Positions 27,054 to 63,540 of a DNA stretch of 64,000 bases are shown here, in pieces. Both the position numbers and the translations under genes were made by a program. Origin of the DNA: Euphorbia lathyris (lineage: Eukaryota; Streptophyta; Magnoliopsida; Malpighiales; Euphorbiaceae). The stretch's first letter is position 1. Each line of letters begins with the position of its first letter. The DNA lies in contig NC_088917.1 in NCBI RefSeq assembly GCF_963576675.1, forward strand, positions 74,200,610 to 74,264,609. The letters are read 5' to 3'. A model generated the notes under the pieces. It worked only from the letters and a program-made list of their open reading frames with translations. It did no database searches and was not told where the DNA came from.

Positions 27054-27084
27054 TTTATATATTAAAAAAAATTAAAAAGGAAAA

Positions 27085-30974: not shown

Positions 30975-31085
30975 AAGAGTGATAAAGAAAGCTAAAAAAA
31001 TCCCAAGTAAATGAATAAAAAAAGTTTCCATAAACAAACAAGTTACTAATACAATTATACAATTGCCACTTCCAGATATCAACTA

Positions 31086-34508: not shown

Positions 34509-34558
<50 letters not shown>

Positions 34559-34782: not shown

Positions 34783-34945
34783 ATCCTTACCTAATAGATC
34801 ATATTGACTTTCTGAGAAATACAAATTGAAAAAAAAAGTGATTTTCAAATTATTAACTGATGACCTTTAACATAGACAATATTTTATGTCAACAAATTTT
34901 TTGAGGCATAACTCAAACTGAAGTGGTTGGAATTTGCATCTCTAA

Positions 34946-35420
34946 AATAAGAGTCCTTTAGAGCATCTTTAGTGGTCTCTTTTATGGGCCATTCTCAAAG
35001 TTTTATACTTTTGAAAAAACAGTCTTCAATCATTAGAGCGGTTGGTTTGGACCCAAATAAGAAGACTCTTTGTAGATGGAGACTATTTTGCTCTGTAAAA
35101 GCAATAATAAATCCAAGGATAGGATTGGAAAGGGAAAGAGACGCGATGATGTGGTAGAAAATTATTGGAGAGTGAAGTTCGATTGCTACTTATTGGTGTG
35201 TGGAAGTTTGGATTCAATCTCCTTTTTCCGATTTCTGGCCCCACCAAGAATCTGCACACAAATACAAATGGCAAGAATATTGAATATAAGCGAGATTTAT
35301 TTTTTTAATGATTTTTTTTTTATTTGGTGATGTAATGTGATGAAAAATATTTAATGAAAAATATTGAATAAACAATCTCCTTTTTTTTATTTTTTTAAAG
35401 ATGATCTTAGCTTTGCAGAA
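34946..35420. other. block B specific segment, possible MITE
   Basis: Absent at the corresponding place in block A. It starts near TTAGAGCATCTTTAGTGG, a common start of plant MITEs, and ends near AAAGATGATCTTAGCTTTG, a weak inverted match. No clear duplication and no coding capacity. Confidence 0.4.
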
Positions 35421-35583
35421 AAATGACAATACCTTCTTTACATGGTCAAGTACAACCACATCCTCATACAAGCCAATGTGTATGTCAAATAGGCTTCTAT
35501 CATCCTTAGGCGCCCTTAAAAATGGAAGCTTTTTGTTCTCTACATATCGCACCGTATCAAAGAGAAATATCCAACCCAGCCAC

Positions 35584-36641
35584 CTAATCATGAAATATTA
35601 TTAGCAAACTCATAGAAAAACGGTAAGATATGTACAATTATGTCTACCTGGAATGATTAGCAATTTGTTGGAATTCAACACACTCCAACTGTTTCTAATA
35701 ATGGGAAATCAATCATAAATTCCAAAAACTGTTTCATCATCTTAACTCTAACCAAATACATAGAGCTTATCCAAATGATCATCGTCAAGATTTGAAAAGT
35801 ATCACGATAAAAAGCAAAACAGAAAAAAAAATCCAAGCTTACAAGTTTCATTTGGATGGTAGGGGCACCATAATTGACAGCTCAAACATTGACCCCTACC
35901 TGCAAGAGGCGGAAGTAGATGGCATAAGATAATGCAAACTATACTACCAATGTAGATTGCATTTAATTGAAAATAAGCAAATGACTGAATTGAGTAAACA
36001 AAATCAACATAAAAGAACCGTTAAACTAAAATTTGAAAAACACAAATTTTATAAACTCACATCAAATTCAAAACATATTAACTTAAGTCCATGAATGTAA
36101 ATAAAATAGTGCTTTATGAAACACCAAGTATTCGAATGTATACATCTCTATGTACATTTTTTTCCTTAGTTAAATTTAGGGGAGAGGAAATAATTTTAGT
36201 AAATCATCAACTGTCATCAGTATACATCAAGATTCAGATTTAAGAGATAATTTGCACATGTGCACTCAGGAATGTGAAAACTGGAGCAACGCAAAAAAAA
36301 AAAAAAAAAAAATACTCAACATCTAACAAGTAACTTTCTGGTTCGCTTAACATGTGGCAATTCACTCTTAAATGACCAAGTGCCAAAAACGATAGGAAAC
36401 ATGCATAAGCTCTTAAAACACAAAACTAAATATAAAACAATTTTAAAATGTTAAAAACTATTCTAAAATATATTGATTAACAGAATAAAAATATATTAAA
36501 AACTATATGAACCGCAAGATAACATATGTTCCTTTTGATTAGTTTTTTTCGTAATTGATCTATTAAATATTTTTTGAATGAAATTGATATATTAAAACCT
36601 TTATTTTTAATGTATGTAAACTAACTAAAAGGTATCTAAAA
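35584..36641. other. block B non-coding DNA
   Basis: Colinear with 27530-28530 of block A. An A-run at 36293-36312 is expanded relative to A. Confidence 0.5.
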
Positions 36642-37079
36642 CTCAGAATTTGGGTATGGGCTCTTCCTTCTCGGCTGAGCTTTGGGGGATCCTTTCCGGC
36701 CTCAAGCTTGCTAAGAATCTTGGCATGAAGAATTTGAGTGTGGAATCTGATAATAGTGAAGCTATCAAAATGATCTCTGAGAAGAGTGCTATTTGTTTGA
36801 AAAGCCAGAATTTAGTCAAAGGGATTAGAAGGATTTGCTCGTCCTTTGATTCCATGAGTTTCTGCCACATCTTCAGAGAACAGAATAAGGTGGCGGACCG
36901 TCTTGCGGCTGAGGGCCACAGAAGGATTTTGGGTGTCTCTACATTTTCTTCTCCTCCGGAGTCCCTGACTTCTCTGCTCTTGGATGATATGGTGGGGGTT
37001 AGCTTCCCTAGGCTAATCTCGGGTTAAATCCTTTGTTTGTTTTTTGCTTTGTCTTTCTTTCCTTTCTTACCAAAAAAAA
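36642..37079 (+). mobile_element. 5'-truncated L1-type LINE 3' end
   Basis: Encodes the last part of a plant LINE RNase H domain: SSFSAELWGILSGLKLAKN, VESDNSEAIK, FREQNKVADRLAAEGH and a stop at 37025-37027, then a T-rich 3' UTR ending CTTACC plus A-run. The first catalytic Asp motif (NTDGS) is lost by truncation. Block A lacks this insertion. The target duplication is obscured by A-rich flanks. Confidence 0.9.
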
Positions 37080-38073
37080 ACTAACTAAAAGAAACCACCG
37101 ATTTAAAAAAACTAAAAGAAACCACCCGACATTAATATTATTAATAAATGAAAACAATATGAGTGTAAGTTAAAAAAAATAGGCACCACAAAATAAGGAG
37201 AAAAAAATATCAAAAATCAACTAAATTGATAGAAAATATGATAGCTCGTTAAAATGGTCTTTAATTACGCTTAATTCCACTTAAAACTAAAGCAGTTTAT
37301 TGATTTTGATGGAAACCCAATTACTTTTTATTTCTATGTATATATATATATATATATATATATGTATTTTATGAGTCTCTACACTCACTCATAATATGAA
37401 AATACACGATTTACAAATTATAATAGAGCTTAGAAGATTTCTCTAATTTGGATTTTAAGAGTTTGATACACATCAATGGCTGGAGGTTAGATTTTATTCT
37501 TTCGTATTATTTTTTTTTATTTCATGGTAAACACAAATATTTGTCTTATAGTTGCTATCAAAGTTCTTTAAACCTTTGCATTGATGTATGTTTTTGTTTT
37601 TTGGAATTTGAGGTTTGAAACAAATATGAAGATTTTGGTTTCCTATTTTTCGACATTTCCAGAGGCTTTTTCAGAAAAAATAAATTTTTTAAACTAAACG
37701 AAATTAAATTCTGAGTAAAATAGTTTTTGAAATGTTAAAAACAAAGTTATATAACTCTAGATATAGGCATGTCATTCAATAGGTCATAAATTGAAGTAAT
37801 ACAAAAATGAGGAAAATACACAGAAAAGCACATTCCATGAAAATTTTATGGTTATGTCAAATCTTATTTTGAATTTTATCATTAGAGAAATTATCAATAA
37901 CTAATTATTTTTAAGAATGTTTATGACATTTCTAAAATAAAAATAAGTCTAGCTGATATAATAGAAATAAAAATTATTAATTTGATTAAAGCCAAAAAAT
38001 CATATTAATTTGTGATGTTTATGTAAAAAACCCGTACAAAAATTAGCACAGTTTTATTTTAGTTTACTATATT

Positions 38074-39334
38074 TTTTTTGGTAGGTAAAGAAAGAAAAAC
38101 AACAAACAAAGAAACCTAACCCGGGATCAACCTAGGAAGGCTGACCCCAATCCTGTCCTCAAGAAGCAGGGAAGTGAGAAAGAGGGGAGGGTCTGAAAGG
38201 GTAGAAACACCTAACATCCCCTCATGGCCAGCTTCCGCCAAGCGATCCGCAACCCGGTTCTGCTCCCTATAGATGTGGGAGAACTTCCAGAACTCGAAGG
38301 AAGGGAGAAGCCTTAAAATGGCTTTGATAAGATTCTGGCTTTTAAGACAAATAGCCCGGTTATCTGAAATCCTGTTGATCGCCACCAAGTTATCAAATTC
38401 AATAGAAAGCCTGCTAACCCCCAGGCTAATGGCGAGCTTGATACCAGAGAGGATACCCCAAAGTTCCGCAGAGTAGGAGGAATCCAACCCTAGATTATGA
38501 GTGAAGCCTGCCAGCCAGGGACCACCTGCATCACGAAGAACACCTCCTGCAGCAATCTTCCCATTGTTAAGGCAGGAGCCATCTGTATTCAGCTTGACAA
38601 CCCCTTCACAAGGTTTACTCCAACCAATAAGATGGACCTCTCTCTTCTGGGTAGCTCCAACCAGGGGATCCCCTTTAAAGCTCTCGGTGATGATAGAGAG
38701 CTTTTTAGAGAAGAAATCAAATAAATCCGGAATAAAGACAGTTTTCTCAGCAAAGATCTCCTCATTTCTCCACTTCCAAATTTGGTGACAGATTATAGCA
38801 AAGAAAATATCACCATTGTCCATGTTTGCCAATAACTTCCCACTAGCTCCTTCCGAGAACCAGTCAGCCTCAGAATGAGCCATAAAGGAAGGGAGAACGT
38901 GGTGGGGCAGAACCTTACTCCACACCTCTTTACTTTTGGGGCAATCCCTAAGAGCATGACACAAGGTTTCAACATGGTCTCTACATCTAGTACAGGCTCC
39001 CGAAACCGCCAAGTGCCTTCTCTGTCTATCCGAATTAGTAAGCAACCTGTTCTTGACTCCCAGCCAAAGGAAACTCCTAATACGGTAAGGGATTTTAAGG
39101 GCCCAAATAGACTTCCAGATATCCGATGGAGGATCGTCCCTGTTAGGAATAAAGGCTTCATAGGCAGATTTACAAGAATAAGCACCATTATTGGTCAGGG
39201 CCCAGCAGTGCTTGTCCTTATCTTCCTCTTGATTACTAATTTTCACTCCTCTAATTTTCAGGAGGGTCTCCAGGTTAAAGAAGGTATCAAACTTAGACCA
39301 GATCCAGTCACCCTCCGAGTTCACCACATCGGCA
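38074..39334 (-). mobile_element. 5'-truncated L1-type LINE with zf-RVT and RNase H
   Basis: Minus-strand insertion with a T-run at the left end and the 18-bp duplication ATTTTAGTTTACTATATT at 38056-38073 and 39335-39352. Block A has one copy of the target. The size and polarity fit target-primed reverse transcription. It is the longest member of a family also inserted at 36642, 28716 and, as tiny tails, at 44410 and 60991. Confidence 0.97.
38116..39327 (-). CDS. LINE ORF2 C-terminal part, open but truncated (403 codons)
   Basis: The frame is open from the truncation point to the natural stop. An N-terminal piece (WALTNNGAYSCKSAYEAF) leads to the reverse-transcriptase zinc-binding domain: KIPYRIRSFLWLGVKNRLLT, CTRCRDHVETLCHALRDC. 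A linker (residues about 150-235) follows, then RNase H with KLNTDGSCLNNG, YSAELWGILSG, EFDN and QNRVADRLAEAGH, the four acidic positions being kept. The reverse transcriptase and endonuclease domains are missing, so this is an immobile fragment. Lack of stops suggests recent insertion. It has no promoter of its own; the listed start is only where the frame opens. Confidence 0.88.
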   Translation of the reverse strand: MVNSEGDWIWSKFDTFFNLETLLKIRGVKISNQEEDKDKHCWALTNNGAYSCKSAYEAFIPNRDDPPSDIWKSIWALKIPYRIRSFLWLGVKNRLLTNSDRQRRHLAVSGACTRCRDHVETLCHALRDCPKSKEVWSKVLPHHVLPSFMAHSEADWFSEGASGKLLANMDNGDIFFAIICHQIWKWRNEEIFAEKTVFIPDLFDFFSKKLSIITESFKGDPLVGATQKREVHLIGWSKPCEGVVKLNTDGSCLNNGKIAAGGVLRDAGGPWLAGFTHNLGLDSSYSAELWGILSGIKLAISLGVSRLSIEFDNLVAINRISDNRAICLKSQNLIKAILRLLPSFEFWKFSHIYREQNRVADRLAEAGHEGMLGVSTLSDPPLFLTSLLLEDRIGVSLPRLIPG

Positions 39335-40470
39335 ATTTTAGTTTACTATATTATGTTTTCCTTTGGGATTTTTTTTTTCTTTTATTTTATGGCCTTATTT
39401 GAGTTGGGTTTTATTAAGTATCTTATTCATTAATTTTATATAGATTCCAAAACAAAATTCTCTGAGAATCGTATATATTCAGACAATTAAAACAGATTGA
39501 GTTATTAAGGTTTGTTGGTGTCTTTTCCTTTTGATAAGTGGATGAGATTTTATATATACATCATTTTTGGCTATATTTGTATTTATCTAAAGAATTTGTT
39601 TGAATTTAATGTTAATGTTAGTTTGCATTAAAGACACTTTTATTATATATAAAATTCAATCAATTGCCTAGTGGTCCATATAATTAGAAATTAGTCACAA
39701 TAATTCTAATTTGCCAAAATTATATATTAAGTTGTGTTTGGACTATATTTGGTATAAGGATATTAATTGCAGTTAATATTTAATGTAATAAATTTTGTCC
39801 CACGCGAACTTTTGTTGTATCTGAATAATTAATTAGGATAAAATATCAAATTATGTTTCCAATTGACCCACATACATTACAAATAGGAATGTAAATTAAA
39901 AGTTTAAGAATACAGTTTAATAAATATATATATTTTTTTAGATGAAAATTTGGCACACATGTACTTTTTTTTGGGTGATGGAAGCTTTATCATTATTAAC
40001 AGCACCAAAAATGGCAACCTTCAATGTGTACGCGTATTATTATCTAAAAGTGCATCTCTTAATTTCACATTCTTTTGGGTTTCACGAATAATCTCAACAA
40101 AAGCATGAACCCCCACATATGTTAAAATCATATATTCATATTACATAAGCTGCAAATAACAAAATAAAGTAAAATTAAATACAAAACAATATAAAAACTC
40201 GGTGCTCAAGTTACCTAGACTTATCCATCTTCTTCAGTCATGTTGTTACTAGACGAGCACGAGGGCAAGGAAACATGGATGAATAAGTCATGTTGTCCAA
40301 CTTGGACCTAATTTTGATAATTTGCACATTGAAAAATTTGATCAAATAGCTAAAAACTTCTTCGGAATTGTTATCTGCTGTTATATACAGGACACTGATT
40401 AGAATCCCAAATCTTCCAGAAAACATAGGGAGTGATGGTGGCGGTTTGAAATTAAAGGGGGAAAATATAC

Positions 40471-40732
40471 CTTAGTGACATCCAATCAAGGTGTGTTCGT
40501 ACAAAAGGATACCATTTAGGGATCTGATCAAGAATCCACGATACACCAAACCATATTTCACAAATTACAGATGTCAACCACAAACAATAATCATTGACCG
40601 GGTGGAGAAGTCTATAATGGAAAAAGAATCCAAGAATCACAAGACGGAGAATGATTATCAATCTGTAGGGATTTATTTTGCTCAATAGAACTGATAACTT
40701 CCTTGAAAGGGGCTGCCTGTCGTCATCCATCC
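40471..40732 (-). pseudogene. cellulose synthase (CesA) exon fragment, copy B
   Basis: [52 protein letters not shown] and [17 protein letters not shown], bounded by TTTCAG and GT. It retains residues closer to functional CesA (YRL, SVIC, LDQ) than copy A but has a codon deletion after HPVND. Same orientation and context as copy A. Confidence 0.88.
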
Positions 40733-40848
40733 TGAAAGAGTGATAAAGAAAGCTCAAAAAAAACCCAAGTAAATGAATAAAAAAAGATTCCATAAACAAA
40801 CAAGTTACTAATATAATTATACAATTAGCACTTCCAGATATCAAATAA

Positions 40849-41122
40849 ATTGCAATTGAAAGCGACATATATTTTTTACGTTCTTTCTTATTGTGTTTAT
40901 ATGTTTGATAAATTAAGTCATGAGTCAGGTCATCTTTCAATTTCTATTTGATGCTTATTCAGGATTGGATGGTGTTTCTTTATACTTTATTAATTCATTA
41001 CGGTAGCAGGTAGAGTACCTGCAAAAAGTGTTTTACATGTTCTTGAATTTGTTCAACATTGATACATTTCTATCCCCTCAATTAATAAGCACAAATAGAG
41101 GAAAAAGGAATGGCTTATTAAC
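40849..41122. other. unassigned
   Basis: Short AT-rich stretch after the end of block B homology. Nothing recognised. Confidence 0.4.
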
Positions 41123-42425: not shown

Positions 42426-42560
42426 TTTTTTTGATATTTTTTTGATGTATTTTTAATATATAAATGTTATGCATAGTAAGAAGACAAGTTTCATTTTATT
42501 ACTTTGATTAAATTTGAAAATTAAAAATTAATTTATATAATGATATAAATAAAAATCAAT

Positions 42561-43136
42561 GGGTTAAGGTGCAAAATACTCATAACGTTTTGGGTGAGGA
42601 GTAATTTTACCTCTAACGTCTAAAATAGTACAAATTTAACCCTAATGTTGGCAGCCAAGAGCAAATTTACCACTAACGTTGATAATTTAGGTCAATTTCA
42701 GACACAATTATAAAAACAGATATTTTTGTCTCTCATTTTGCAACAATTGCATATCAATTCGTTCTAAAAAAAAGATTTCATGTGTTTTATAATTTAATAA
42801 TAGAACTGGAGATTAATATTTAAAAATTCGGTGAATTTTTTGATTTTTTTTGTCCAATTCGTACAAAAGACGATATATTTTTTTATTTTTTTACATCCCA
42901 ACATATGTTTGTGATTTATTAGTGATAAAATGACGCTTGTGTGAAGTGTAGATGCCAAGATTCATGATCGAGAAGACAGTTTGATGAAATATTTATCAAA
43001 TAAACCAAATTTATCAATGTTAGGGGTAAAATTGCTCTTGACTTTCAACGTTAGAGGTAAAATTGCACCATTTTAGACATTAGGAGTAAAATTGCTTCTG
43101 ATCCAAAACGTTAGAGGTATTTTTGAACCTTAACCC
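42561..43136. mobile_element. MITE, 576 bp, TSD AAAATCAAT
   Basis: Ends GGGTTAAGGTGCAAAATAC and GGGTTAAGGTTCAAAAATAC (inverted) with the 9-bp duplication AAAATCAAT at 42552-42560 and 43137-43145. This is the best-defined member of the AACGTTAGGGGTAAAATTG family and shows it to be Mutator-type. Confidence 0.93.
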
Positions 43137-43851
43137 AAAATCAATTAGTAAATTTTATATTAAAGGGGCTCTTACTACTTGTTTTGCCTAGGACCCTTAA
43201 ATTGTGAGGACCGGCCCTGGTAATAGATAATAGATAGATATGGACTATATTCATATGGAAAACAATGAAAGATATAATTGTCGAAATAATTGATTGGTAA
43301 TCAGTTCTTCTATTTGCCTATATAAAGTGGGTAAATTTCAAGTCCTAGAGCTAGTGCAGTAGGCGCAAACAAAAACGCATCAGCTAAATCTTTAGATAAA
43401 GAGTTGTTTATCTATGAAAAAACCATGTTATTATTTTCTTCCCATTTTAGAAACTCATCTGAGGTAGTTTCCTCAGGTTCAGTATCTTTTAGCACAAAAC
43501 TAATTTTCTTTTTGCGCTTAGCGCAATCATGTCGATCTCTACGAATCTCTCCTCTGAATTGATTTCGTCATAGGGATACGCAGGGATACTTTTGGGAATG
43601 TGTTTTGGAATAAATTAGGTAACATTTAAGAGATTTTTTTAAATAACTTTATAAAAATAGGGGTTAATACAAAAGAAATTAATATATTGAAAGAGGTTGA
43701 ATTCTGAAATAATTCACTAGTATATTCCTTGACGAAGTTGTCCAAATATATACATACAAAAACTATTCCTAAACTAATACTAATTCGGAAAAACAGAAAC
43801 CAAACCTAACTATACCTAGGAGAAAGGACACCTATATGCATGGTTTGAACT

Positions 43852-44372
43852 AAGGCTGCACAAAACTAACCGAAAAACCGAATTTTGAAACCGAAACCAA
43901 ACCGAAAAATAGGTTAACCGTAACCGATGGACTAGTTTACGGTTTTTATTTTAAAAACCGATGGTTAACCGAAACCGAAAAATAAATTGATTATGTATTA
44001 ATACACATAAAACTAGTATAAATATATGTAGAAATTTAATTATCAATTTATAAACATACATATTTATATTTAATTTTTAAGTTAAAAATATCAAAATAAC
44101 TTAAAACTTATTTGTTTTGACAATTTTGTTAATTAAATTTGAAGTTACATATTTTTATTTAATATTTAAATAATTATATATTTATTTTAAAGTGAATAAT
44201 TATAGATGTAAAATGATATTTGCTACGAAAAGTCACTAATGGTTAACCGGTGGAAATATATATAGGTTAACCGACCGAAGTTTATATTAACCGAAATATG
44301 GTTAACCGAATTAAATGGACTGGTTAATGGTTTTTGTTAATGGACTGGTTAACCGACCATATGCACCCCTAG
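43852..44372. mobile_element. hAT-like MITE, about 520 bp
   Basis: Starts AAGGCTGCACAAAAC, ends ATGCACCCCTAG, and is filled with GGTTAACCG and its complement. Flanked by GTTTGAACTA on both sides; block C2 at about 52597 shows the uninterrupted GGTTTGAACCAGG site. Confidence 0.88.
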
Positions 44373-44409
44373 TTTGAACTAGGTAAAAAACCACGTGTAA
44401 TACAAAACT

Positions 44410-44427
44410 TTTTTTTTTTTTGGTAAA
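44410..44427 (-). mobile_element. minimal LINE tail insertion, 18 bp
   Basis: A T-run plus GGTA between two copies of ACGTGTAATACAAAACT (44393-44409 and 44428-44444). The related site in C2 also has a duplicated ACGTGTAATA, so this is an older event. Confidence 0.65.
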
Positions 44428-44885
44428 ACGTGTAATACAAAACTAGGAATAACATGCTTAACATAAATAAATCTCTAATATAAATAATTAATAAAAAACT
44501 AGCATGCACCTCCCCTTTCATTTGTAAAAATAAATAAATAAATAAAAACTAATCATTATTAAATGTTTGTAGATAAAGATCTAAAAATGTCATTTCGTAG
44601 TTTAAATAGTTCGAAGTATTAAATGTTCTTTTTATGAATTGATGACTTATGAAGAGTGTTACTTATGGTTTTATAATTACTTATTAGTGATTTATGATTT
44701 TCTCATATTTTTCAAAAATATCGTTTACCGTACCCGTACGCTTACCGATATCCGTATGCGTACCCATATCGGTAATTCGTAGATATTTGCAAAAATGAAT
44801 TTACGGTCACATATTAAATCCAGTGCATGTAATATAATTCACAAAAGCCTTGTCATATAAAAATGACGTTTTATAGGTAGGAATA

Positions 44886-45373
44886 AGGTATAAGGTGTAA
44901 AAATATCCCTAACGTTTACAGTCAGAAGCAATTTTACATCTAACGTCTAAAATGTTGCAATTTTACCACTTATCTTAGTAGCCAAGAACAATTTTATCCC
45001 CAATCTTCGCAAATTGGGTTATAGAACATATATATGTCATGATTTATGTGATTTAATAATGAAATTAAAGATTAATATTTATAAATTTGACGAAATATTT
45101 GATTTTTTTTCCAACTCGTACAAAGGACTTTTAAATTCTTTTTAAAAAAATTCACGTCTAATCATATGACTGTGATATATAATTAATGAGCGATAAAATG
45201 GCGCACATGTGAAGCGTAGATGAATAATTTCTTAAATTGACCAAACTCTTCAACGTTAGGGGTAAAATTGCTCTTAATTGCTAATGTTAGAGATAAAATT
45301 GTACCATTTTAAACATTAGGAGTAAAATTACTCATGATTATAAAAGTTGGTATTTTTGCACCTTATCTCTAGG
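44886..45373. mobile_element. MITE of the AACGTTAGGGGTAAAATTG family
   Basis: Inverted ends AAGGTGTAAAAATATCCC and AAGGTGCAAAAATACC with stacked units. The orthologous copy in C2 is at 60213-60724. Confidence 0.82.
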
Positions 45374-45904
45374 AATAAGCTTGAGAGTAATGAACTTAAA
45401 CAAACTCAAACTTGGTCAAATCTAATTTGGCAATATTAGAAAATGAGACTAAAAAATGACATGGTTATAAATGGTTGGATATTTGGTGATTTGTCTTCCA
45501 AATATATATTATTTGGAGTAGAAATGTACCAATTAAATAATAAAAAATCAAATTAGAAAATGTTTCCTCATACATGGAATCTCGTAATTCATTTTACTTG
45601 CAATGGTTGTCACTTCCTATATTTGAAAATATGGACTATATTCATATGGAAAACAATCAAAGAGACATAGTTGTTGAAATAATCCATTGGTCCCTGAGCT
45701 TCTGCATTTACACTAATTAGTCCTTCTATTTGCCAATATAAAGATCCGAAAATGTCTTAGAATAGTATTTAGACTAGATAGTTTAAATAGTTTGAAGTAT
45801 AAAATTTTCTTTTTTATGAATTGATGACTTATGAATTATTAGGATTGTTACTTATTGTTTTATAATTACTTATTAACATGATTTCTGGTTTTCTCATATT
45901 TTTC

Positions 45905-46166
45905 AAAAAATTCATGTCTAATCATATGACTGTGATATGCAATTAATGAGTGATAAAGTGACGTACATATGTGAAGCGTAGATGATGAGATTCATGATCG
46001 AGAAGACAGTTTGATGAATAATTTCTTAAATTGACCCAACATGTCAACATTAGGGGTAAAATTGATCCTAGTTGCTGACGTTAGGGGTAAAACTGTACTA
46101 TTTTAGACGTTAGGAGTAAAATTGTTTTTGACGGTAAACGTTAGAGTATTTTTGCACCTTATCCCT
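45905..46166. mobile_element. half of a MITE of the same family
   Basis: Only the right half is kept (ACGTTAGGGGTAAAACTG units, ending TTTGCACCTTATCCC). The C2 counterpart is 61120-61383. Confidence 0.75.
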
Positions 46167-46526
46167 AGGAATAAATTTGACAGTAATGATCTTAATTGTA
46201 TCAACCTCAAACTTGGTGAAATCTAATTTGGCAATATTAGAAAATGAGACTAAAAATGGCATGGTTATAAATTGTTGGATATTTGGTGATTTCGCTTCAG
46301 GATATATATTATTTGGAGTAGAAATGTACAAATTAAGTAATAAAAAATCAAATTAGGGAAATTCTTCCTTATACATGGAATCTGATAATTCATTTTACTT
46401 GTCACTCCCTGTAGTTGAATATATGGACTATATTCATATATAAGTTCCAGTTTCAAAATTTAAGTTAAGGGTAAATAATTAATTGGTCCCTGAGCTTCTG
46501 CATTTACAATAATTAGTCCTATTTGC

Positions 46527-46536
46527 CTATATAAAG
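46527..46536 (+). promoter_or_regulatory. TATA box upstream of the MIR168-like hairpin, C1
   Basis: CTATATAAAG about 50 bp before the hairpin stem. The same box with flanking sequence recurs at 43319, 52084 and 61742, so it belongs to a repeated promoter-like segment. Confidence 0.5.
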
Positions 46537-46578
46537 AAGGCAAATTTGCCTTGAAGAACATATCTTTCTTCCACCAAA

Positions 46579-53173: not shown

Positions 53174-53535
53174 TGATGACTTATAAAGAGTGTTACTTAT
53201 GGTTTAATAATTACTTATTACATGATTTGTGATTTTTTCATATTTTCCAAAAATATCGTTACCGTACCCGTAAGCGTACTGATATCCGTATGCGTAACTG
53301 ATAGGGGTATTTTACCCCTATCTTTTAGCGTGATTTACGGGTTAATTTTAGAAGAAATAAATAAGTTTAATTGCAAAATAGAGTGTTTTGAATAAAATAG
53401 CGAAATAATAATAAATTTCGTATTTTCGGATAATTTCCCTTGTTTTTGATGTATTTAGGAAATAAAAACGTCAGGCTAACTCGGCTCTCAAGAATTGTAT
53501 TTCAGGTACAAGGAAGAAACAAAATTCATGCCAAT

Positions 53536-54006
53536 ACGCAGGGCGTATCATCCCATACGCGGGGCGTGAAATATCAAGTCAGAAATGATTGCTCTATCCA
53601 TAGACACCACGTGGGATCGAGTCAGCATACGCGAGGCGTATGCCAACCTACGCGAGGCGTATAATCAAATGTCAGAAATGATTGCCTAATCCTGAAAAGT
53701 CAGACCGCATGGTCTCCCCGAGGCAACGACCTATACGCAGGGCGTACCACCTTACACGCGGGGCGTGTAAGGGAATTCTTCAGTGCAAAAAGTCCAGAGA
53801 CTCATCTATGCGGGGCATGCCTCAAGCTACGCACGGCGTATGGAGACCAAAGCAAGCGATAAAAGGTCAGAATCTCAAACACGCCATGCGTATCCCAGTC
53901 TACGCAGGGCGTATTTGAGACAACAAATCTAGAATTGGTCCACATGCAGAAGATTTCTAACGAAATAGGCATCTACGCGAGGCGTGCCACACCATACGTG
54001 GGGCGT
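53536..54006 (+). promoter_or_regulatory. six paired 11-bp CpG dyads, 21-bp phased, left LTR
   Basis: Consensus ACGCRRGGCGT, a 4-3-4 quasi-palindrome. Pair starts are 53536/53557, 53629/53650, 53735/53756, 53808/53829, 53881/53902 and 53975/53996: always 21 bp, while the 10-bp spacers differ in sequence and pair-to-pair distances vary from 73 to 106 bp. The array ends about 79 bp before the TATA box. The layout suggests cooperative protein binding on one face of the helix. The binding factor is unknown. Confidence 0.85.
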
Positions 54007-54084
54007 ATTATGGGATTTCTGCACAAATAATGTTGCTCCATACTTGTACCTTGCAAAGTTACAATTCTGCCCTAGCTTGATATG

Positions 54085-54092
54085 TATAAATA
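54085..54092 (+). promoter_or_regulatory. TATA box of the left LTR
   Basis: TATAAATA followed by GGCAGCTC, inside a conserved part of both LTRs. Transcription would start about 30 bp downstream. Confidence 0.7.
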
Positions 54093-55102
54093 GGCAGCTC
54101 TTGATACATCTTGAACACATCATTAGAGAGAGCAAAACTATACTTGTTTTGATTGTTGTAGTTTTAGATTTGTTTTTAGGCTTTGTGTAACTAAACTCTT
54201 CCATCTCGAGAGCTTGTCCGTTGCTCCCGGCATTTCATCAAAGTCCCGCTCCATCTCCGCACACCAAGCTCGAGAGCTCCACCATTCAAGTCCTTAGAGA
54301 CGGCTTTTGAGTCCGGTTAGCTAGTTCCGAAGGTGGATTCTTCCCTTTACACTTGCTAATTAGCTTGATCTCATTCTATATACTAGGCTTGTTTGTAATC
54401 CATATTTATAATTTATGATTCATAACCTCTTTTTCTATATATGTGTTGATGTTTGTTGCTTGTTTTGATACTCGTAATTGACTATTGTGTAGGGGAACGC
54501 GATTTCCGACGCCATTCGGGCTATCTTTAGGGATTCATATAGGTGTTGCCTTACCGGAAGTGACGCTCCGGAAACCGTAGGAATTGACAAGCCACGGAAC
54601 TTACGGGCCCTAATTTCTGGTCCCAAGCATTAGACACGCCTTGACTAGGAACCACATAGTCTAAGTACTTCACGGGTCGGTCGAACTACACGTAGTCGTC
54701 TTTACAAGAGCAAAACATTAACCATATATGTATTAGGAGTCGTTATTTGTCATAGTTATAACTTATCGCCAACCGTATCACTTCTTAAGAGTTTCGTCAT
54801 ATAAATTTGCCTCACCCGTAGTTTGGAATAGTTTGTAGTTGGTTCCCATATCAACCTCGGAGTATTTACCGCTTAAATAAAGTATAAAACCGAGTCGTTT
54901 AATACTTGCAGTTATAAATCCCGTGGATTCGATACCCGATCTTGACCGGATTATTACTTGATACGACGGGGTACACTTGCCCCTAAGTAGTGACGTCTAG
55001 TAGATACAAAGCACTTAGAAAGAGCACATCCATAGTCATAGCGCACTTATCATAATACACATTATATCCTAAGAAAACACTACGCTAGACATCGCCCCAT
55101 CA

Positions 55103-55122
55103 AGTTTTTAGCGCCGTTGCCG
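55103..55122 (+). other. primer binding site, tRNA-Asp
   Basis: TAGCGCCGTTGCCGGGGA, one mismatch from the standard TGGCGCCGTTGCCGGGGA used by Athila/Tat-type plant elements. A few bases separate it from the LTR end. Confidence 0.88.
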
Positions 55123-55253
55123 GGGATTTATAATTTCTTGCAATATTAGACAAAAAGGTTTTATTGTTAGTTTAAGCATTTGTAAATATTACTTTCTTTT
55201 TGTGTGAATAATTTATTTTGTTTCGTGTTGTTACTAATGATTTGTTTCATGGT

Positions 55254-55676
55254 ATGATGCCTCATAGTCGTCGTCTGTGGGATGACCTCATGGATGACGA
55301 ATGTTCGCACCTACCACCAACCTCATAATTCGATGTGGTAATCTCTATGCTTAAAGACATTCATGAAAGATTATCTAACACTGAGGCATATTGTAGGGAT
55401 TTGGGAAATCTACTTGCCAGATTGAAGTCTCGTCTTGATTCAGCCGCGGACGAATCAATTCGAGATACCAATCCGGTTGGTCAAAATGGAAAGCTCGAGT
55501 TAATTGAGTTTTCTCAAGAAGATTCTCCAAATAATAAAGGTTGTCTCAGTTGCGAGGAAACGGACATCGATGAGCCGGTTGTGTGCGGACCCATGGAAAT
55601 AAATCCAAAGTTAGAAGAGTTTGAGGTTCCTTCTACCTCGGAATATTTCACTCTTTTTGAACTACCAAATGAGTAA
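55254..55676 (+). pseudogene. small gag-like ORF remnant with one nonsense codon
   Basis: From ATG at 55254 the frame reads MMPHSRRLWDDLMDDE, reaches TAA after LPPTS, and continues in frame to 55676: MLKDIHERLSNTEAYCRDLG, then acidic stretches (CEETDIDEPV, NPKLEEFEVPSTSEYF). No zinc knuckle or other domain is recognised. By position it replaces gag. The 113-codon open part could still be translated from an internal start. Confidence 0.45.
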
Positions 55677-55863
55677 AAAAGGGAGCAAACTACACTCTTC
55701 ATTAATTTCTGCAAATATAGTTTTTGGTTTTTGTTAAATTTTTTTGAAGCTAACAATCTGTTTTGTAGGTACGGATTCTTTATTCAAGAATTTGCATTTC
55801 TAACGCGTATGGAAGCATACACCTAGGAGGAAATTCTAAGTCGAGCTCACCGACTATAAAGTA

Positions 55864-55892
55864 GCGCTTCTTGGGAGGCAACCCAAGCTCGA
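55864..55892 (+). other. conserved retrotransposon hairpin
   Basis: CTTGGGAGGCAACCCAAG forms a 6-bp stem with a 6-nt loop. From memory this GGGAGGCAACCCA element recurs in plant Athila/Tat-type internal regions. The role is unknown; packaging or translation control is possible. Confidence 0.5.
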
Positions 55893-56188
55893 ATAAAGTT
55901 TAATTTTATGTCTTTAATTTACCTTTTAAGTTTTTACATTTAAGTTATTATCGTGTGATTAATTATTCTTTTTTTTTACATTTTATTAGGTGTTCGTGTA
56001 ATTTGTGTCAATTCGGTGGGACGATTTGGAAGGGAATTGTAATTATTGACGTTGGCAAAAATAAAACAAAACAAAAAAAAAATTTGAAAAAAATTATGTT
56101 ATTTTATTTTATTTTATTTTACTTTTTATTTTTGGAATATATATAATATATATGTTGATTTAAAATAAAAAAAAAACAAATATTTGCT
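55893..56188. other. AT-rich interior of the LTR element
   Basis: No coding sequence recognised. Confidence 0.5.
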
Positions 56189-56385
56189 GCCGCAGCCCAC
56201 GCCTCGCGTGCGTTGCTGCGGCAGTGCCAGAGGCTCGGGCCCGCGGGGCGTGCCGCAGCCCACGCCTCGCGTGCATTGCTGCGGCAGTGCCAGTGGCTCG
56301 GGCCCGTGGGGCGTGCCTCAGCCCACGCCTTCCGTGCGTTGCTGCGGCAGTTCCAGAAGCTCGGGCCCGCGAGGCGTGCAGCGCC
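56189..56385 (+). repeat. 63-bp GC-rich minisatellite, three units, with the LTR dyad
   Basis: GCAGTGCCAG (or GCAGTTCCAG) recurs at 56221, 56284 and 56347, a period of 63. Each unit contains ACGCCTCGCGT, the reverse complement of the LTR dyad ACGCGAGGCGT, at 56199, 56262 and (mutated) 56325. CCGCGGGGCGT-type copies lie at 56241, 56304 and 56367, each of the first two exactly 21 bp before the next inverted copy. GC content is far above the surroundings. Open frames through it come from composition. Confidence 0.85.
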
Positions 56386-58271
56386 TGGCTGGCCGCCCAG
56401 CGCTGGGCACCTCCGCTGAGCGACGCCCGCCGGCCGCAACGAGTTGAAATTTTATTTTTATTTTTATTTTTATTTTCTTTCTTCTCTAATTTTATTTTAA
56501 TAAAAAATTATATATATATATATTTAATAATAAAAAAAAATCAAACAATAAATTAATTAATAAATTAATAAATTAATAAAAATATTTACATTAATAATCT
56601 TACACCCAATTTAAATTTTCAATTTTATATTTTAAATAAATGCCAACCAAGTTCGAGAATTGATACCTCGAATACTTCACAAGTCATTTCTTTCGGGAGC
56701 GGAGCATGTCATATCCACCACCATCGGAAGATGTTTGAGGGAGTTTTCTCTACCTTACTCTTTTTCTTTACACCTTGTGCTTCAAATTTCTTTCGCAATG
56801 TCGGAACTTATTGCGTTTTTAAGTGTGAGGAGGGATAGGGTAGATCACCCTCTATCTTTCAATTTAAATGCTATCTTTCTTTTTGTTTTTGTTTTCTTTT
56901 CTTTTGCGACGTCCTTGGAATAGACGTCATTTTAATAACGCGGAGGGCCGTGCAACCCCGCACCTTCAGTTTGTTTTGCACTAACAAAAACAAAAATAAA
57001 AATCAAATAAACAACAAAATAATTAAACTAATTTATTGATCCCTAAAATTTTTCCCGACACACTAATCTCCCTCGGAAATTATTTAAATGTTCCTATGTT
57101 TGTCCTTAAATGTAAATACCGTCGGAACACAAAGGATCGGTTTTAGTAAGAAATTTTAGTCTTAATTTTGAAGTTATAGAATTTATGCAAAGCCTAGGTT
57201 CGTACCAAACAAAAGCATTGAGTCCTAACCCATAAGTTATCTCCATAATGAAATTTAAAAAGGTAATAAAAACGTGATGTTTGAAAATTTAGCGAAGATT
57301 CGATAGTACACAATTTAAACCCGAATCTTTTGTGAGATATTTTTGAGCCTAAAAGAGTTCGTACGAGAACTCTATTTCTTTCACAATTTTCGAGAGCTTT
57401 GACTTCACTCGACTCATAGAGTTTGCACCTAATGCCGGGATTAGTACACTTATTTTGGTTAAAATGGCAATAGATGATGAAACGAACTCACTTAGTCTAA
57501 TTCTTTTCTTAACTTATTTTTCTCGTTTTCATTTACCTCTAGGAAACCCCCTTTGAGCCTATTAACCAACGTCTTTGTTTTTAATACCCTTTTTAGCATT
57601 TAACCCTTTGAGCCTAGGAAAGCCTTGATAAGTAAACACCTTAAACCCTCGAAATCGTTTTTGTGCCGCTCTCAAAACAAAAAGAAAATAAAAATACAAT
57701 AAAGAGCAAAAGGCATTCTCAAGCTCCACCCGAGCAATTTCGAGTATATCTTATGAACTCGCTAAGGCCAAAATAAAAATACGGTGCGATCACCAAAATG
57801 GTATTTAAACTCGAGTTTCCAAAAATTAACCACTAAAAAGCCACCCACATTACAACCCCCCTCCGGGTTCATTTTTAATATTGTCTAAAACCATAACATA
57901 GGAGGAAAAATCCGGATGAAAATGCAAACTCAACGTGATCTCAAGTAAAGTGCAAAGAAGAGTGCTAAAACACCGACCCACCAAAGATTGAGCGTAAGAG
58001 TGAAACCCCTTGGTGAGGTGCAATCGGGTTCTCAAAAGATAATCGACCCCCGTTAATATTGCCTATTAGTTTTGATAATGGAGGTTTCAAACAAGTTTTG
58101 GTCACTCGATTGCTTGCGTAGGTACTTGCCGAAAACTTTGCATAAAACTTCAACTTTGAAATCACGCACTTGGTAAAACCAACCGTCGGTTTGTTTCTTA
58201 ACAATCTCAATCCCTTGTCTTTCGATTTCTTTTACTTGAGGACAAGTAAAACTTTAAAGTCCGAGGAGGTT
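56386..58271. other. non-coding interior of the LTR element
   Basis: GC-rich to 56445, then AT-rich with moderately complex stretches (56640-58270). No retrotransposon protein found in any frame. CCGAGGAGGTT before 58272 is the likely polypurine tract. Confidence 0.55.
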
Positions 58272-58509
58272 TGATAGGGGTATTTTACCCCTATCTTTTA
58301 GCGTGATTTACGGGTTAATTTTAGAAGAAATAAATAAGTTTAATTGCAAAAATAGAGTGTTTTGAATAAAATAACGAAATAATAATAAATTCCGTATTTT
58401 CGGATAATTTCCCTTGTTTTTGATGTATTTAGGAAATAAAAATGTCAAGCTAACTCGGCTCTCAAGAATTGTATTTCAGGTACAAGGAAGAAGCAAAATT
58501 CATGCCAAT

Positions 58510-58980
58510 ACGCGGGGCGTATCATCCCATACGCGGGGCGTGAAACATCAAGTCAGAAATGATTGCCCTATCCACAGACACCACGTGGGATCGAGTCAGC
58601 ATACGCGAGGCGTATGCCAACCTATGCGAGGCGTATAATCAAATGTCAGAAATGATTGCCTAATCCTGAAAAGTCAGACTGCATGGTCTCCCCGAGTCAA
58701 CGACCTATATGCAGGGCGTACCACCTTACACGCGGGGCGTGTAAGGGAATTCTTCAGTGCAAAAAGTCCAGAGACTCATCTACGCGGGGCGTGCCTCATG
58801 CTACGCACGGCGTACGGAGACCAAAGCAAGCGATAAAAGGTTAGAATCTCAAACACGCCATGCGTATCCCAGTCTACGCAGGGCGTATTTGAGACAACAA
58901 ATCTAGAATTGGTCCACATGCAGAAGATTTCTGACGGAATGGGCATCTACGCGAGGCGTGCCACACCATACGCGGGGCGT
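58510..58980 (+). promoter_or_regulatory. six paired 11-bp CpG dyads, 21-bp phased, right LTR
   Basis: Pair starts 58510/58531, 58603/58624, 58709/58730, 58782/58803, 58855/58876 and 58949/58970, again always 21 bp. Differences from the left LTR within the motifs are C/T or G/A changes. Confidence 0.85.
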
Positions 58981-59058
58981 ATTATGGGATTTCTGCACAA
59001 ATAATGTTGCTCCATACTTGTACCTTGCAAAGTTACAATTTTGCCCTAGCTTGATATG

Positions 59059-59066
59059 TATAAATA
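59059..59066 (+). promoter_or_regulatory. TATA box of the right LTR
   Basis: TATAAATA at the same place relative to the dyad array as in the left LTR. Confidence 0.7.
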
Positions 59067-60212
59067 GGCAGCTCTTCATACATCTTGAACACATCATTAG
59101 AGAGAGCAAAACTATACTTGTTTTGATTGTTGTAGTTTTAGATTTGTTTTTAGGCTTTGTGTAACTAAACTCTTTCATCTCGAGAGCTTGTCCGTTGCTC
59201 CCGGCATTTCATCAAAGTCCCGCTCCATCTCCGCACACCAAGCTCGAGAGCTCCACCATTCAAGTCCTTAGAGACGGCTTTTGAGTCCGGTTAGCTAGTT
59301 CCGAGGGTGGATTCTTCCCTTTACACTTGCTAATTAGCTTGATCTCATCCTATGTACTAGGCTTGTTTGTAATCCATATTTACACTTTCCATATTTATAA
59401 TTTATGATTCATAACCTCTTTTTCTATATATGTGTTGATGTTTGTTGCTTGTTTTGATACTCGTAATTGACTATTGTGTAGGGGAACGCGATTTCCGACG
59501 CCATTCGGGCTATCTTTAGGGATTCATATAGGTGTTGCCTTACCGGAAGTGACACTCCGGAAACCGTAGGAATTGACAAGCCACGGAACTTACGGGCCCT
59601 AATTTCTAGTCCCAAGCATTAGACACGTCTTGACTAGGAACCACGTAGTCTAAGTACTTCACGGGTCGGTCGAACTACACGTAGTCGTCTTTGCAAGAGC
59701 AAAACATTAACCGTATATGTATTAGGAGTCGCTATTTGTCATAGTTATAACTTATCGCCAACCGTATCACTTCTTAAGAGTTTCGTCATATAAATTTGCC
59801 TCACCCGTAGTTAGGAGTAGTTTGTAGTTGGTTCCCATATCAACCTCAAAGTATTCACAGCTTAAATAACGTATGAAACCGAGTCGTTTAATACTTGCAG
59901 TTATAAATCCTGCGGATTCGATACCCGGTCTTAACCGGATTATTACTTGATACGACGTGGTACACTTGCCCCTAAATAGTGACGTCTAGTGAACATAGAG
60001 CATTTAGAAAGACCACATCCATAGTCATAACGCACTTATCATAATACACATTTCGTCGTAGAAAATACGACCCACTAGACATCGCGCTATTAGTAACCAT
60101 ATCGGCAATTCGTAGATAATTGCAAAAATGAATTTACGGTGACATATTAAACCAGTGCGTGTACTACAATTCACAAAAGCCTTGTCATATAAAAGTGAGG
60201 TTTTATAGGTAG

Positions 60213-60724
60213 GAATAAGGCATATGGTGTAAAAATATCCCTAATGTTTACAGTCATGAGCAATTTTATCACTAATGTCTAAAATAATGTGATTTTACCC
60301 CTTATCTTAGTAGCCAATAGCAATTTTACCTCTAATGTTCGCAAATTGAACCGATTTTAGACATTATTATAAAACATAGATATGTCATGATTTATGTGAT
60401 TTAATAATGAAATTAAAGATTAATATTTATAAATTTGGTGAAATATTTGAATTTTTTTTCCAACTCGTAGAAAGGACAATATATTTTTAATTTTTTTCAA
60501 AAAAAATCCACGTCTAATCATATGGTTGTTATATATAATTAATGAGTGATTAAATGGCGTACATGTGAAGCGTAGATGAATAATTTTTTAAATTGATCAA
60601 ACTTGTCAAACGTTAGGGATAAAATTGCTCTTAATTGCTAATGTTAGGCGTAAAATTGCACTATTTTAAACATTAGGAGTAAAATTACTTCTGATTGTAA
60701 AATTTGGTATTTTTGCACCATATC
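60213..60724. mobile_element. MITE of the AACGTTAGGGGTAAAATTG family, C2
   Basis: Orthologue of 44886-45373 with the same ends, more decayed. Confidence 0.8.
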
Positions 60725-60990
60725 TCTAGGAATAAACTTGACACTAATGAACTTAAACAAACTCAAACTTGGTCAAAAATCTAATTTGGCAATATTAGAA
60801 ATGGTTGGATATTTGGTGATTTGGCTTCCAAATATATATTATTTGGAGTAGAAATGTACCAATTAAATAATAAAAAATCAAATTAGGAAATGTTTCCTTA
60901 TTTGATTCTATTTGCCTATATAAAGATCCCAAAATGTCTTAGGATACTATTTAGACTAGATTGTTTAAATAGTTTGAAGTATAAAATTTT

Positions 60991-61014
60991 GTTTTTATTT
61001 TTTTTTTGGTAGGC
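60991..61014 (-). mobile_element. minimal LINE tail insertion, 24 bp
   Basis: T-rich run plus GGTAGGC between two copies of ATAAAATTTT (60981-60990 and 61015-61024). C1 at about 45800 has a single copy. GGTAGG is the same junction as in the LINE at 38080. Confidence 0.85.
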
Positions 61015-61119
61015 ATAAAATTTTCTTTTTATGAATTGATGACTTATGAATTATTACGCTTTTTACTTATTGTTTTATAATTACTTATTAACATGATTTA
61101 TGGTTTTCTCATATTTTTC

Positions 61120-61383
61120 AAAAAATTCATGTCTAATCATATGATTGTGATATGCAATTAATGAGTGATAAAATGACGTACATATGTGAAGCGTAGATGA
61201 TGAGATTCATGATCGAAAACACAGTTTGATGAATAATTTCTTAAATTGACCCAACATGTCAACATTAGGTGTAAAATTGTTCCTAGTTGCTAACGTTAGG
61301 GGTAAAACTGTATTATTTTAGACGTTAGGAGTAAAATTGTTCTTGACGGTAAACGTTAGGGTATTTTTGCACCTTATCCCTAG
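61120..61383. mobile_element. half MITE, C2
   Basis: Orthologue of 45905-46166. Confidence 0.72.
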
Positions 61384-61741
61384 AAATAAACTTGACAGTA
61401 ATGATCTTAATTGTAACAAACTCAAACTTGGTGAAATCTAATATTAGAAAATGAGACTAAAAATGGCATGGTTATAAATTGTTGGATATTTGGTGATTTG
61501 GCTTGAGGATATATATATTATTTGGAGTAGAAATGTATTAAGTAATAAAAAAATCAAATTAGGGAAATTCTTCCTTATACATGGAATCTGATAATTCATT
61601 TTACTTGGTAGAACTTGTCACTCCCTATAGTTGAATATATGGACTATATTCATATATAAGTTCCAGTTTCAAAATTTAAGTTAAGGGTAAATAATTGATT
61701 GGTCCCTGAATTTTGCATTTACAATAATTAGTCCTATTTGC

Positions 61742-61750
61742 CTATATAAA
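61742..61750 (+). promoter_or_regulatory. TATA box upstream of the MIR168-like hairpin, C2
   Basis: CTATATAAA about 50 bp before the hairpin, same context as C1. Confidence 0.5.
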
Positions 61751-61793
61751 GAAGGCAAATTTGCCTTGAAGAACATATCTTTCTTCCACAAAA

Positions 61794-61906
61794 TTTCACA
61801 GTGGGATTGAATTTGCTTGGTGCAGCTGCGGGAATGTTCTCTAGTGTCTTGTAATGAGCAAGAAGATTCCCAGCTGCACCATCCAAGTTCTATCCCTCTG
61901 TGAACC
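61794..61906 (+). ncRNA. MIR168-like hairpin, copy C2
   Basis: The 5' arm and loop are identical to C1. The 3' arm differs at a few clustered bases (CACCATCCAAGTTC against CACCAACCAAATGC), so the stem has extra mismatches in the part opposite the 5' end of the predicted small RNA (61813-61833). Same caveats as for C1. Confidence 0.48.
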
Positions 61907-62959
61907 ATACCAAGGAGTAAAGCTGCAGATTGAATTTCTCTGTCATACTATCATTTTATTCATGTTCATTCTATGTTATTGAATAAGTAATTTTCATTTC
62001 CACTCATATCTAGGTTTTTGTTTTACCTACTGTTTTTTCTGTTGGTGTTTGCTGATTGCTGTCAGAGTTTGCCGTTTGAAAAAACTGTTTTAAAAAATTA
62101 GAGATTCTCTGCTTTTATAAGATGTTACTTTTCAGGTGTAAAAGGCAAAAAGGAGATTATCAACCAAATATCTAAAACTCTCCTTTTTGAAGTGAAAAGC
62201 AAACAGCCCTTGGTTATTCAGGCTACAGGTGAATACTACTGGTTCTTGAGTTGTTAATCTAAACCCTCAATTAGACCAAGCAAAATTGGAGCCTAAAGAG
62301 AGAATACTCTTTCTGATCCAATATCAATGCTATTGCTGGTATTAACATCTCATCTAATTTCTGAAAAAACTAGAAAAAACAAAAATTTAATGATATATGA
62401 AATGAAAAGTTACAAGCTTTAGTAAATGAAAACCTTTACTGATTGATATTTATGTTTATCTTCAATTGGGTTTTTAGGGTTTGGTGGTTCTTGTTTATCT
62501 CAATTGGGTTTTTAGGGTTTTTAGGTTATAGATCATCGTTTTCTTCATGTTCATGCTATGTTATTAAGTAATGTTCACCTGGAAGCTGCCATTCACCGTT
62601 ATATCTAGGTTTTTTAGAATCCTAGCACTGTTCAAAACATCTCAAGGATTAGATTTAATAACCCTAAATCTAACTCTGACCAGATTCATTTGGTCATTCA
62701 TGTCCACGCAGAGAATCCTATTTCTGATCCAATATCAATGCTATTCCTGGTATTAACATCTGATCTAATTTCTGAAAAAACCAGAAAAAACAAAAATTTG
62801 ATGATATAAAAGAAAACCCTAGAGGAATAGGAACTTTTAATTGCTATATGAAATGAAAAGTTACATACTTTAGTGATTGATGTTTATGTTTATCTTCAAT
62901 TGGATATTTAGGGTTTGGTGATTCTTGTTTATCTCAATTGGGTTTTTAGGGTTTCAGGT
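61907..62959 (+). other. leader-like region, C2
   Basis: Colinear with 46693-47755, with TAGGGTTT motifs. Non-coding. Confidence 0.4.
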
Positions 62960-63163
62960 ATGGATCATCAAAGGCATAAACAGCCTTCTGCAGGCAGTGG
63001 AGTTCCTGTTTCATATCAGCCTAGCCACATGATGAGACCTTCCCTGACCGGACCACCACTTCAATCTCCACCTCAGGTAGCCGGAGTCACTGCTGCATCT
63101 CCTTTGACCCAATTATGTTCTTTTGAATTTCAAATCTGTATATTACCAAAGACATTGTATTAG
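62960..63163 (+). CDS. short Pro/Gln-rich ORF starting MDHQ, C2
   Basis: 67 residues, nearly identical to the C1 ORF for the first 45 (MDHQRHKQPSAGSGVPVSYQ onward), with SPPQVAGVTAASPLTQL later. It ends a few codons earlier because of a TAG after TLY. Parent gene not identified. Confidence 0.4.
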   Translation: MDHQRHKQPSAGSGVPVSYQPSHMMRPSLTGPPLQSPPQVAGVTAASPLTQLCSFEFQICILPKTLY

Positions 63164-63184
63164 ACAGCTTGTATATGATCCTAA

Positions 63185-63540
63185 TATAGAAAAATTTCTT
63201 GTCTTAATACATCATTTGCCCCCTTAACTTAACTTGTCCTAAAAACTTGGTTGGCCCCCTAAATTTTCAAAGTATCTCGATAGCCCCTGAACTTGCATAA
63301 AATATTCAGTTAGCTTCCTAAACTTACGTAAAATGTAATCAATTAATTACTCAGTTGTAAAAAAGTAAGTTAAACGCGGAAGATGTGTTGCACGCATCTT
63401 AAAAAAAAAAAGTAAATTTACCAAGGTTAGGATATGCAATTCTAATTTTAGAGAAGAAAAAGTTTTATAATTAAACAAGTAAAAATTTGGTTTACTGATA
63501 TAGACAGCTTGTATATGATCCTAATATAGAATGATTTCTT
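63185..63540. other. C2-specific insertion flanked by a direct repeat
   Basis: AGACAGCTTGTATATGATCC occurs at about 63157 and 63502 around a segment not in C1. The segment contains TTGCCCCCTTAACTTAACTT and GGTTGGCCCCCTAAATTTTC, typical of one half of a plant MITE. Either an insertion or a slipped duplication. Confidence 0.55.

Follow-up and report, generated by a model that had tools for sequence, protein, structure and literature searches.

Paired CpG-rich dyads at a near-fixed 21-bp spacing in the long terminal repeats of a probably Athila-like retrotransposon family of Euphorbia lathyris

Palindromic boxes in plant LTRs

Plant elements of the Tnt1/Tto1 type carry tandem U3 enhancer repeats, short boxes upstream of the promoter in the long terminal repeat (LTR) that may bind host factors. 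Their boxes are few and unrelated in sequence to those described here, where each LTR holds twelve dyads in near-fixed geometry. The Sireviruses (Ty1/copia) come closer. The sections of PMC2829016 on their repeated motif (RM) boxes describe many palindromic, CpG-bearing copies in the LTR shortly upstream of the TATA box, with further clusters inside those RM elements that possess an ENV gene, and propose a cis-regulatory role with no factor named. According to passages in PMC10760457 and PMC5311732, maize Sireviruses have a cis-region rich in palindromes, which lie in fast-changing LTR DNA and are small-RNA hotspots (work credited to Bousios et al. 2016).

We analysed a window of 64,000 nucleotides of E. 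lathyris DNA (the term denotes this whole stretch), in which an LTR retrotransposon carries a comparable array. As in the RM sections, a palindromic cluster lies upstream of the LTR TATA box and further copies are found in the interior. The arms are ACGC and GCGT here, whereas the RM core is given in those sections as CGG-CCG. Sireviruses are Ty1/copia, whereas the protein domains of a related element here are of Ty3/gypsy type (Retrotrans_gag, Ty3_capsid and ATHILA models), and the element is therefore not a Sirevirus. A 21-bp pairing and a 73-bp module are features of the present array, and we found neither pairing nor fixed spacing in the RM sections of PMC2829016. Our best reading is that the dyad array is similar to, yet distinct from, the Sirevirus repeated motif. 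A literature search, with most subscription journals outside its scope, found no description of Athila LTRs with paired dyads at a fixed spacing. A lettuce repeat contains the dyad as well, since the FISH probe Oligo-ls350 includes TACGCGGGGCGTG (as given in an excerpt of PMC11598091). The portion of the Sea-ATI main text (PMC10681729) that was searched for a binding factor contained no ACGC or GCGT string. IMG/VR yielded one stretch with the exact pair (L001), a single pair in 14.6 kb, which we read as a chance match.

The host element, its family and its surroundings

The array belongs to an element of 6.8 kb (53299-60092) with LTRs of 1.8 kb each, in an assembly of 1.02 Gb. The locus displays the features of an LTR retrotransposon insertion, namely two LTRs, a 5-bp target-site duplication and an empty-site paralogue. 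The empty site is known because both flanks of the element match a single uninterrupted stretch at 44639-45568 (identity 91% and 86%). The inverted repeat TGATAGGGGTATTTTACCCCTATC opens both LTRs (53299-53322 and 58272-58295). The parts of the element are as follows.

53294..53298 and 60093-60097, no strand assigned: target-site duplication GTAAC, 5 bp, left and right copy
53299..55102, + strand: left LTR, TG...CA, with the inverted repeat at its start
55111..55126, + strand: primer-binding-site-like GCGCCGTTGCCGGGGA after the 5' LTR, which we take to be of tRNA-Asp type
58263..58271, + strand: purine-rich, polypurine-tract-like GAGGAGGTT before the right LTR, presumably functioning as a polypurine tract
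58272..60092, + strand: right LTR, with GTAAC directly after it

The two LTRs were 95.5% identical over the BLAST match, and their K2P distance was 0.041. At the substitution rates of 1.3e-8 and 7e-9 used for dating, this divergence would place the insertion about 1.6 to 3 million years ago. The window copy lacks any open reading frame of at least 130 aa in the ORF list of the window, and is a non-autonomous member of its family. A related element (L018) encodes an ATHILA ORF-1 domain (PF03078, 25.9 bits vs. a cut-off of 20.2, positions 110-205 of 458) and a Retrotransposon gag domain (PF03732, Retrotrans_gag, E = 1.5e-21). On these domains, which were read in the relative, the family is best read as Athila-like (Ty3/gypsy). 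Long LTRs, and gag together with ATHILA ORF-1 in the relative, are points of likeness to the Athila clade, with which the window element presumably also shares its tRNA-Asp-type primer site.

Around the insertion site, repeats related to one another form a dense mosaic in which both orientations occur (42560-46537 and 60093-63187). Elsewhere in the window, a block of approximately 8 kb is duplicated (22931-31087 and 32145-40849; pieces 94.6-97.9% identical), and each block copy contains one frame, at 30607-31062 and 40452-40940, which we take to be a CesA-like N-terminal part. Three open reading frames at 332-4313 on the - strand are presumably of Ty1/copia type, with integrase, reverse transcriptase and RNase H motifs.

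Dyad pairs, their spacing and their phase

Each LTR contains six pairs of dyads. An earlier note on this DNA had reported that the members of every pair start 21 bp apart, and this was confirmed in 12/12 pairs of the window. The constant part of the dyad is ACGC-NNN-GCGT, and a 10-bp spacer separates the two members. The pairs and the adjacent promoter element are as follows.

53536..53567, + strand: dyad pair 1, left LTR
53629..53660, + strand: dyad pair 2, left LTR
53735..53766, + strand: dyad pair 3, left LTR
53808..53839, + strand: dyad pair 4, left LTR, left member off the motif at two CpG sites
53881..53912, + strand: dyad pair 5, left LTR, left core CAT
53975..54006, + strand: dyad pair 6, left LTR
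54085..54092, + strand: putative TATA box TATAAATA (TATAAATAGG), assigned on its letters; at 59059 in the right LTR
58510..58980, + strand: six right-LTR pairs, starting at 58510, 58603, 58709, 58782, 58855 and 58949, second member at +21

The motif ACGCRRGGCGT, as it was originally worded, was exact in 16 of the 24 motif copies of the two LTRs and the remaining eight had one or two mismatches; the wording is too narrow in its core, which reads CAT in the copies at 53881 and 58855 and ACG in those at 53829 and 58803. The distance from the end of the array to the TATA box start at 54085 was 79 bp, close to the 80 bp previously estimated. Pair-to-pair steps of 93, 106, 73, 73 and 94 bp were identical in both LTRs. 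The pair-to-pair distance is thus not constant inside one LTR, as had been noted, but each step is conserved between LTR copies. The motifs of the two LTRs differed at 6/132 sites. All six differences were transitions, and in each case the affected C or G is part of a CpG in one LTR (five in arms, one in a core), as would be expected from decay of methylated CpGs after insertion. The DNA around such LTR CpG boxes would normally be methylated.

The hypothesis that the array reflects chance or an assembly artefact is practically negligible, and no point in its support was found. At up to two mismatches the motif ACGCRRGGCGT matched the window 42 times, a count reached in none of 100 shuffles (mean 6.79, largest 13), and both window LTRs agree with 29 further LTR copies. 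Reversed-pattern controls of the genome-wide search for exact dyad pairs with any core yielded 0 pairs at spacers of 0-8 bp, 0 at 9 bp, 0 at 10 bp and 2 at 11-25 bp. The search itself returned 23,368 pairs at spacers of 0 to 25 bp. The 10-bp spacer (21-bp step) accounted for 19,187 of these (82%), the 9-bp spacer (20-bp step) for 3,763 (16%), and the other 24 spacers for 418 (1.8%; 127 at 0-8 and 291 at 11-25 bp). For the strict motif, 12,448 exact pairs (6,079 + 6,369) had a spacer of 10 bp and 1,095 a spacer of 0-9 bp; among the matches listed, the latter had a spacer of 9 bp in all but five. These genome-wide counts refer to the whole assembly, not to loci selected for pairs; statements on individual places hold among the matches listed. 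The 21-bp spacing is near-fixed. It is not invariant as the earlier note had it, a description which holds in the window LTRs and fails genome-wide on the 3,763 pairs at 20 bp and the 418 at other distances. Nor do the counts display free variation of the 21-bp distance.

Distances between dyads also clustered on the helical phase. Genome-wide, 9,206 distances were 50-54 bp, 1,499 were 40-44 bp and 811 were 61-65 bp, against 96 off phase at 45-49 bp and 75 at 55-59 bp; reversed controls gave 0, 6, 1, 1 and 0 for these five classes in that order. The counts are not independent events, because many listed rows at 42 and 63 bp hold runs of 21 bp and the 52-bp distance is inherited with a module. 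When distances were collapsed to sequence classes, 1 of 20,000 nulls was as good as the data with 26 classes and 0 of 5,000 with 49 classes. At a looser collapse threshold (17 classes) the signal was gone, with 2,328 of 5,000 nulls as good. For the six pairs of the window LTR, the start positions gave R = 0.964 at 10.46 bp. Two runs on these positions, each with 20,000 jittered arrays, produced 45 and 32 arrays that did as well. Steps of 80-81 bp in some internal arrays are off phase. The strength of helical phasing as a proof of geometry depends on how distances are collapsed.

The interior of the window element contains two further pairs, with inverted cores and 10-bp spacers, inside the following repeat.

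56188..56379, no strand assigned: internal 63-bp GC-rich tandem repeat, three copies, with inverted-core pairs at 56241/56262 and 56304/56325; unpaired dyads at 56199 and 56367

Dyad starts in this repeat alternate between steps of 42 and 21 bp, and similar sequence was present at C1:45763179 and C1:55669876 among the matches listed. In internal arrays of related elements, 54 of 70 inverted-core pairs were spaced at 21 bp and 12 at 20 bp. Where a pair comes after an interval of 50-54 bp, a box close to CAGRRRCTC lies upstream of it and ends 4 bp before the dyad. With at most one mismatch, CAGNNNCTC occurred at a fixed place in 26/39 collapsed flanks of direct pairs (shuffles 1.24) and in 18/72 flanks of inverted pairs, seen from both strands (shuffles 1.87). 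Two such boxes lie in the window array.

53795..53803, + strand: CAGAGACTC box preceding pair 4; at 58769-58777 in the right LTR
53867..53876, + strand: TCAGAATCTC, a variant of this box, preceding pair 5; in the right LTR TTAGAATCTC at 58841-58850

LTR and internal arrays thus seem to share a 73-bp module (52 + 21 bp). Because direct and inverted pairs seem to have the box and module in common, the inverted pairs are weaker as independent evidence on spacing. A second dyad class with the core TCC/GGA (ACGCTCCGCGT) was present at L033-L036, L038, C1:18829384 and other places, with pairs at 21 bp as well as steps of 22 and 30 bp. The loci L033-L052 and L053-L072 had for the most part been picked for specific or uncommon spacings. 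Dyads 49 bp apart around a recurring CCTCTACGTGGCATTTATT-like stretch were found in approximately 14 places among the matches listed, C1:4510866 being one of them, and represent a further layout.

Conservation, duplication and possible function

We aligned 31 LTR arrays. Two belong to the window, and the other 29 come from 20 loci out of 23 taken from the first 3.3 Mb of contig C1; the remaining three loci (L011, L012 and L025) had no array above the length filter. Copies were 72.6-100% identical to the window array. By our own tally of the table, 150/173 detected pairs were spaced at 21 bp and 23/173 at 20 bp, in a sample biased towards 21 bp since loci were picked for at least one exact pair with a 10-bp spacer. 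Divergence was computed over 455 copy pairs, with pairs from the same locus left out. The p-distance was lowest in the dyads (0.071, 91% of differences being transitions), followed by the cores (0.191), the DNA between pairs (0.201) and the spacers (0.352). Spacer divergence exceeded between-pair divergence in 430/455 comparisons. Slot by slot, the spacer was faster than the following interval in 5/6 cases, with the order reversed in slot 3 (0.232 vs. 0.260). The previous claim that spacers are not conserved thus stands in that they are overall the least conserved DNA of the array, with the exception of slot 3 and of a skewed composition: among 72 distinct LTR spacers, G made up 40/720 letters and the terminal base was C or T in 70. 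The alignment indicates that dyad letters are held while the linker sequence runs free.

Comparisons within and between slots gave 0.072 vs. 0.075 for dyads, 0.192 vs. 0.248 for cores and 0.350 vs. 0.576 for spacers. Rampant homogenisation between motif slots as the source of dyad conservation is weakened by these values, since cores and spacers retain some slot identity.

The constancy of the dyads and the variation of the linker suggest a docking site for a putative plant protein. Most likely the array is an enhancer-like, factor-binding array. In its full form, a U3 array of an Athila-like family built from composite paired-dyad sites for a putative dimeric host factor, we give this reading about an even chance of being right. 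Its unit would be two CpG-rich dyads two helical turns apart, often preceded at a fixed offset by the CAG...CTC box. Each dyad may bind a dimeric host DNA-binding protein, as its symmetry suggests, and the 21-bp step suggests that two dimers could sit side by side on one face of the DNA. Cooperative binding by such a factor, as first proposed for this locus, would fit this arrangement. Once bound, the dimers might assist in recruiting transcription to the TATA box, which lies 79 bp further downstream. The dyad letters would be kept by selection on the replicating lineage, the 10-bp linker would provide length more than letters, and the arrays would lengthen or shorten as units of 21 bp and 73 bp are duplicated or deleted between near-identical dyads. 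Whole units have indeed been lost, L014 and L030 each lacking one 73-bp unit.

The strongest rival is descent alone, in which the spacing is the inherited period of duplicated 21-bp and 73-bp units, the dyads are functional and the distance between them is not read. It is compatible with the sequence evidence by itself, and we regard it as possible while leaning against it. In relatives there are stretches in which three to five motifs follow one another at exactly 21 bp, in some cases with almost identical spacers, and the LTR copy of L020 contains an exact 21-bp duplication. Relative to shuffled pairings, spacers were similar to the 10-bp flank preceding the pair (z = 3.0) and to the one following it (z = 3.8), as compared with z = 1.0 for a control of the preceding against the following sequence. 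On this evidence, 21-bp tandem duplication is a real generator of pairs. Among the matches listed, the 20-bp variants of the strict motif recur with few spacer sequences, also as expected from descent. Distances of 21, 42, 52, 63 and 73 bp can descend from a few ancestral duplications, which argues against geometry.

Spacer length is informative in the same direction. Length was compared in those 20 of the 31 copies whose six pairs were all detected. Three of the six slots had spacers of variable length (9 or 10 bp), and four of the five intervals were variable too. Length heterozygosity per bp was 0.0145 for spacers and 0.0052 for intervals, and length variation per substitution was 0.0305 and 0.0220, respectively. 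The spacing is therefore not specially protected on the time scale of homologous copies, its length being no more constrained than that of the intervals. Against descent alone, divergence between slots has reached 0.576 in the spacers, yet they still measure 9-10 bp, and genome-wide only 291 and 127 of the 23,368 pairs have spacers of 11-25 and 0-8 bp. Inverted-core pairs share the spacing, and direct duplication of a 21-bp unit does not make them. Moreover, most pair classes are no longer flank-like, since a likeness of at least 6/10 was found in only 12/80 classes before the pair and 9/80 after it. The earlier idea that geometry is what is constrained gains from the thousands of copies that keep 21 bp and from the inverted-core pairs, which mostly do the same, and loses on the length comparison, on the common 20-bp form and on the tandem duplication seen in relatives. 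Likewise, a decayed 21-bp tandem repeat was borne out as far as duplication in relatives is concerned, while the spacers have diverged in the window LTR. A simple long tandem repeat with conserved spacers was rejected for this LTR, whose spacers are overall its fastest part.

Motif CpGs lead to a further rival. In the aligned array 36/43 majority CpGs lay in motifs, with a retention of 0.88 vs. 0.70 for the seven outside. Retention of this kind would also be expected if the dyads were nucleic-acid hairpins or targets of small RNAs and DNA methylation, kept as an aid to replication or as a cost that cannot be shed; such roles have been proposed for the palindromes of maize Sirevirus LTRs. RNA folding of the right-LTR array exceeded shuffles on the two strands (z = -3.6 and -5.1, 0/100 each), and the Sirevirus palindromes are small-RNA hotspots according to the passages in PMC10760457 and PMC5311732. 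The stems measure just 4-6 bp by inspection, however, and a hairpin has no obvious need for a linker of fixed length. Compensatory change was not seen in the dyad arms, with 106 single-arm changes against 3 symmetric ones, a test weakened by post-insertion decay, which probably accounts for most of the changes. We consider this explanation distinctly improbable.

A bolder version of the factor-binding reading is that a plant retrotransposon clade has fixed a helically phased dyad lattice, with pairs at two turns, pairs of pairs at five or seven turns, and direct cores in U3 and inverted ones inside, whose geometry would be read by a dedicated oligomeric factor of the host or the element. Fast linkers would then perhaps evade homology-based silencing. 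We think this unlikely.

If the geometry is read, the approximately 19,000 natural copies that a single genome contains of this 32-bp composite site, with their varied spacers, would form a ready-made library for the spacing code of a plant factor. The family would then show a retrotransposon keeping its promoter signal while the surroundings diverge. Even if descent alone is responsible, the family shows LTR enhancer-like arrays built by 21- and 73-bp steps, and provides a clean case of conserved CpG boxes in DNA that would normally be methylated.
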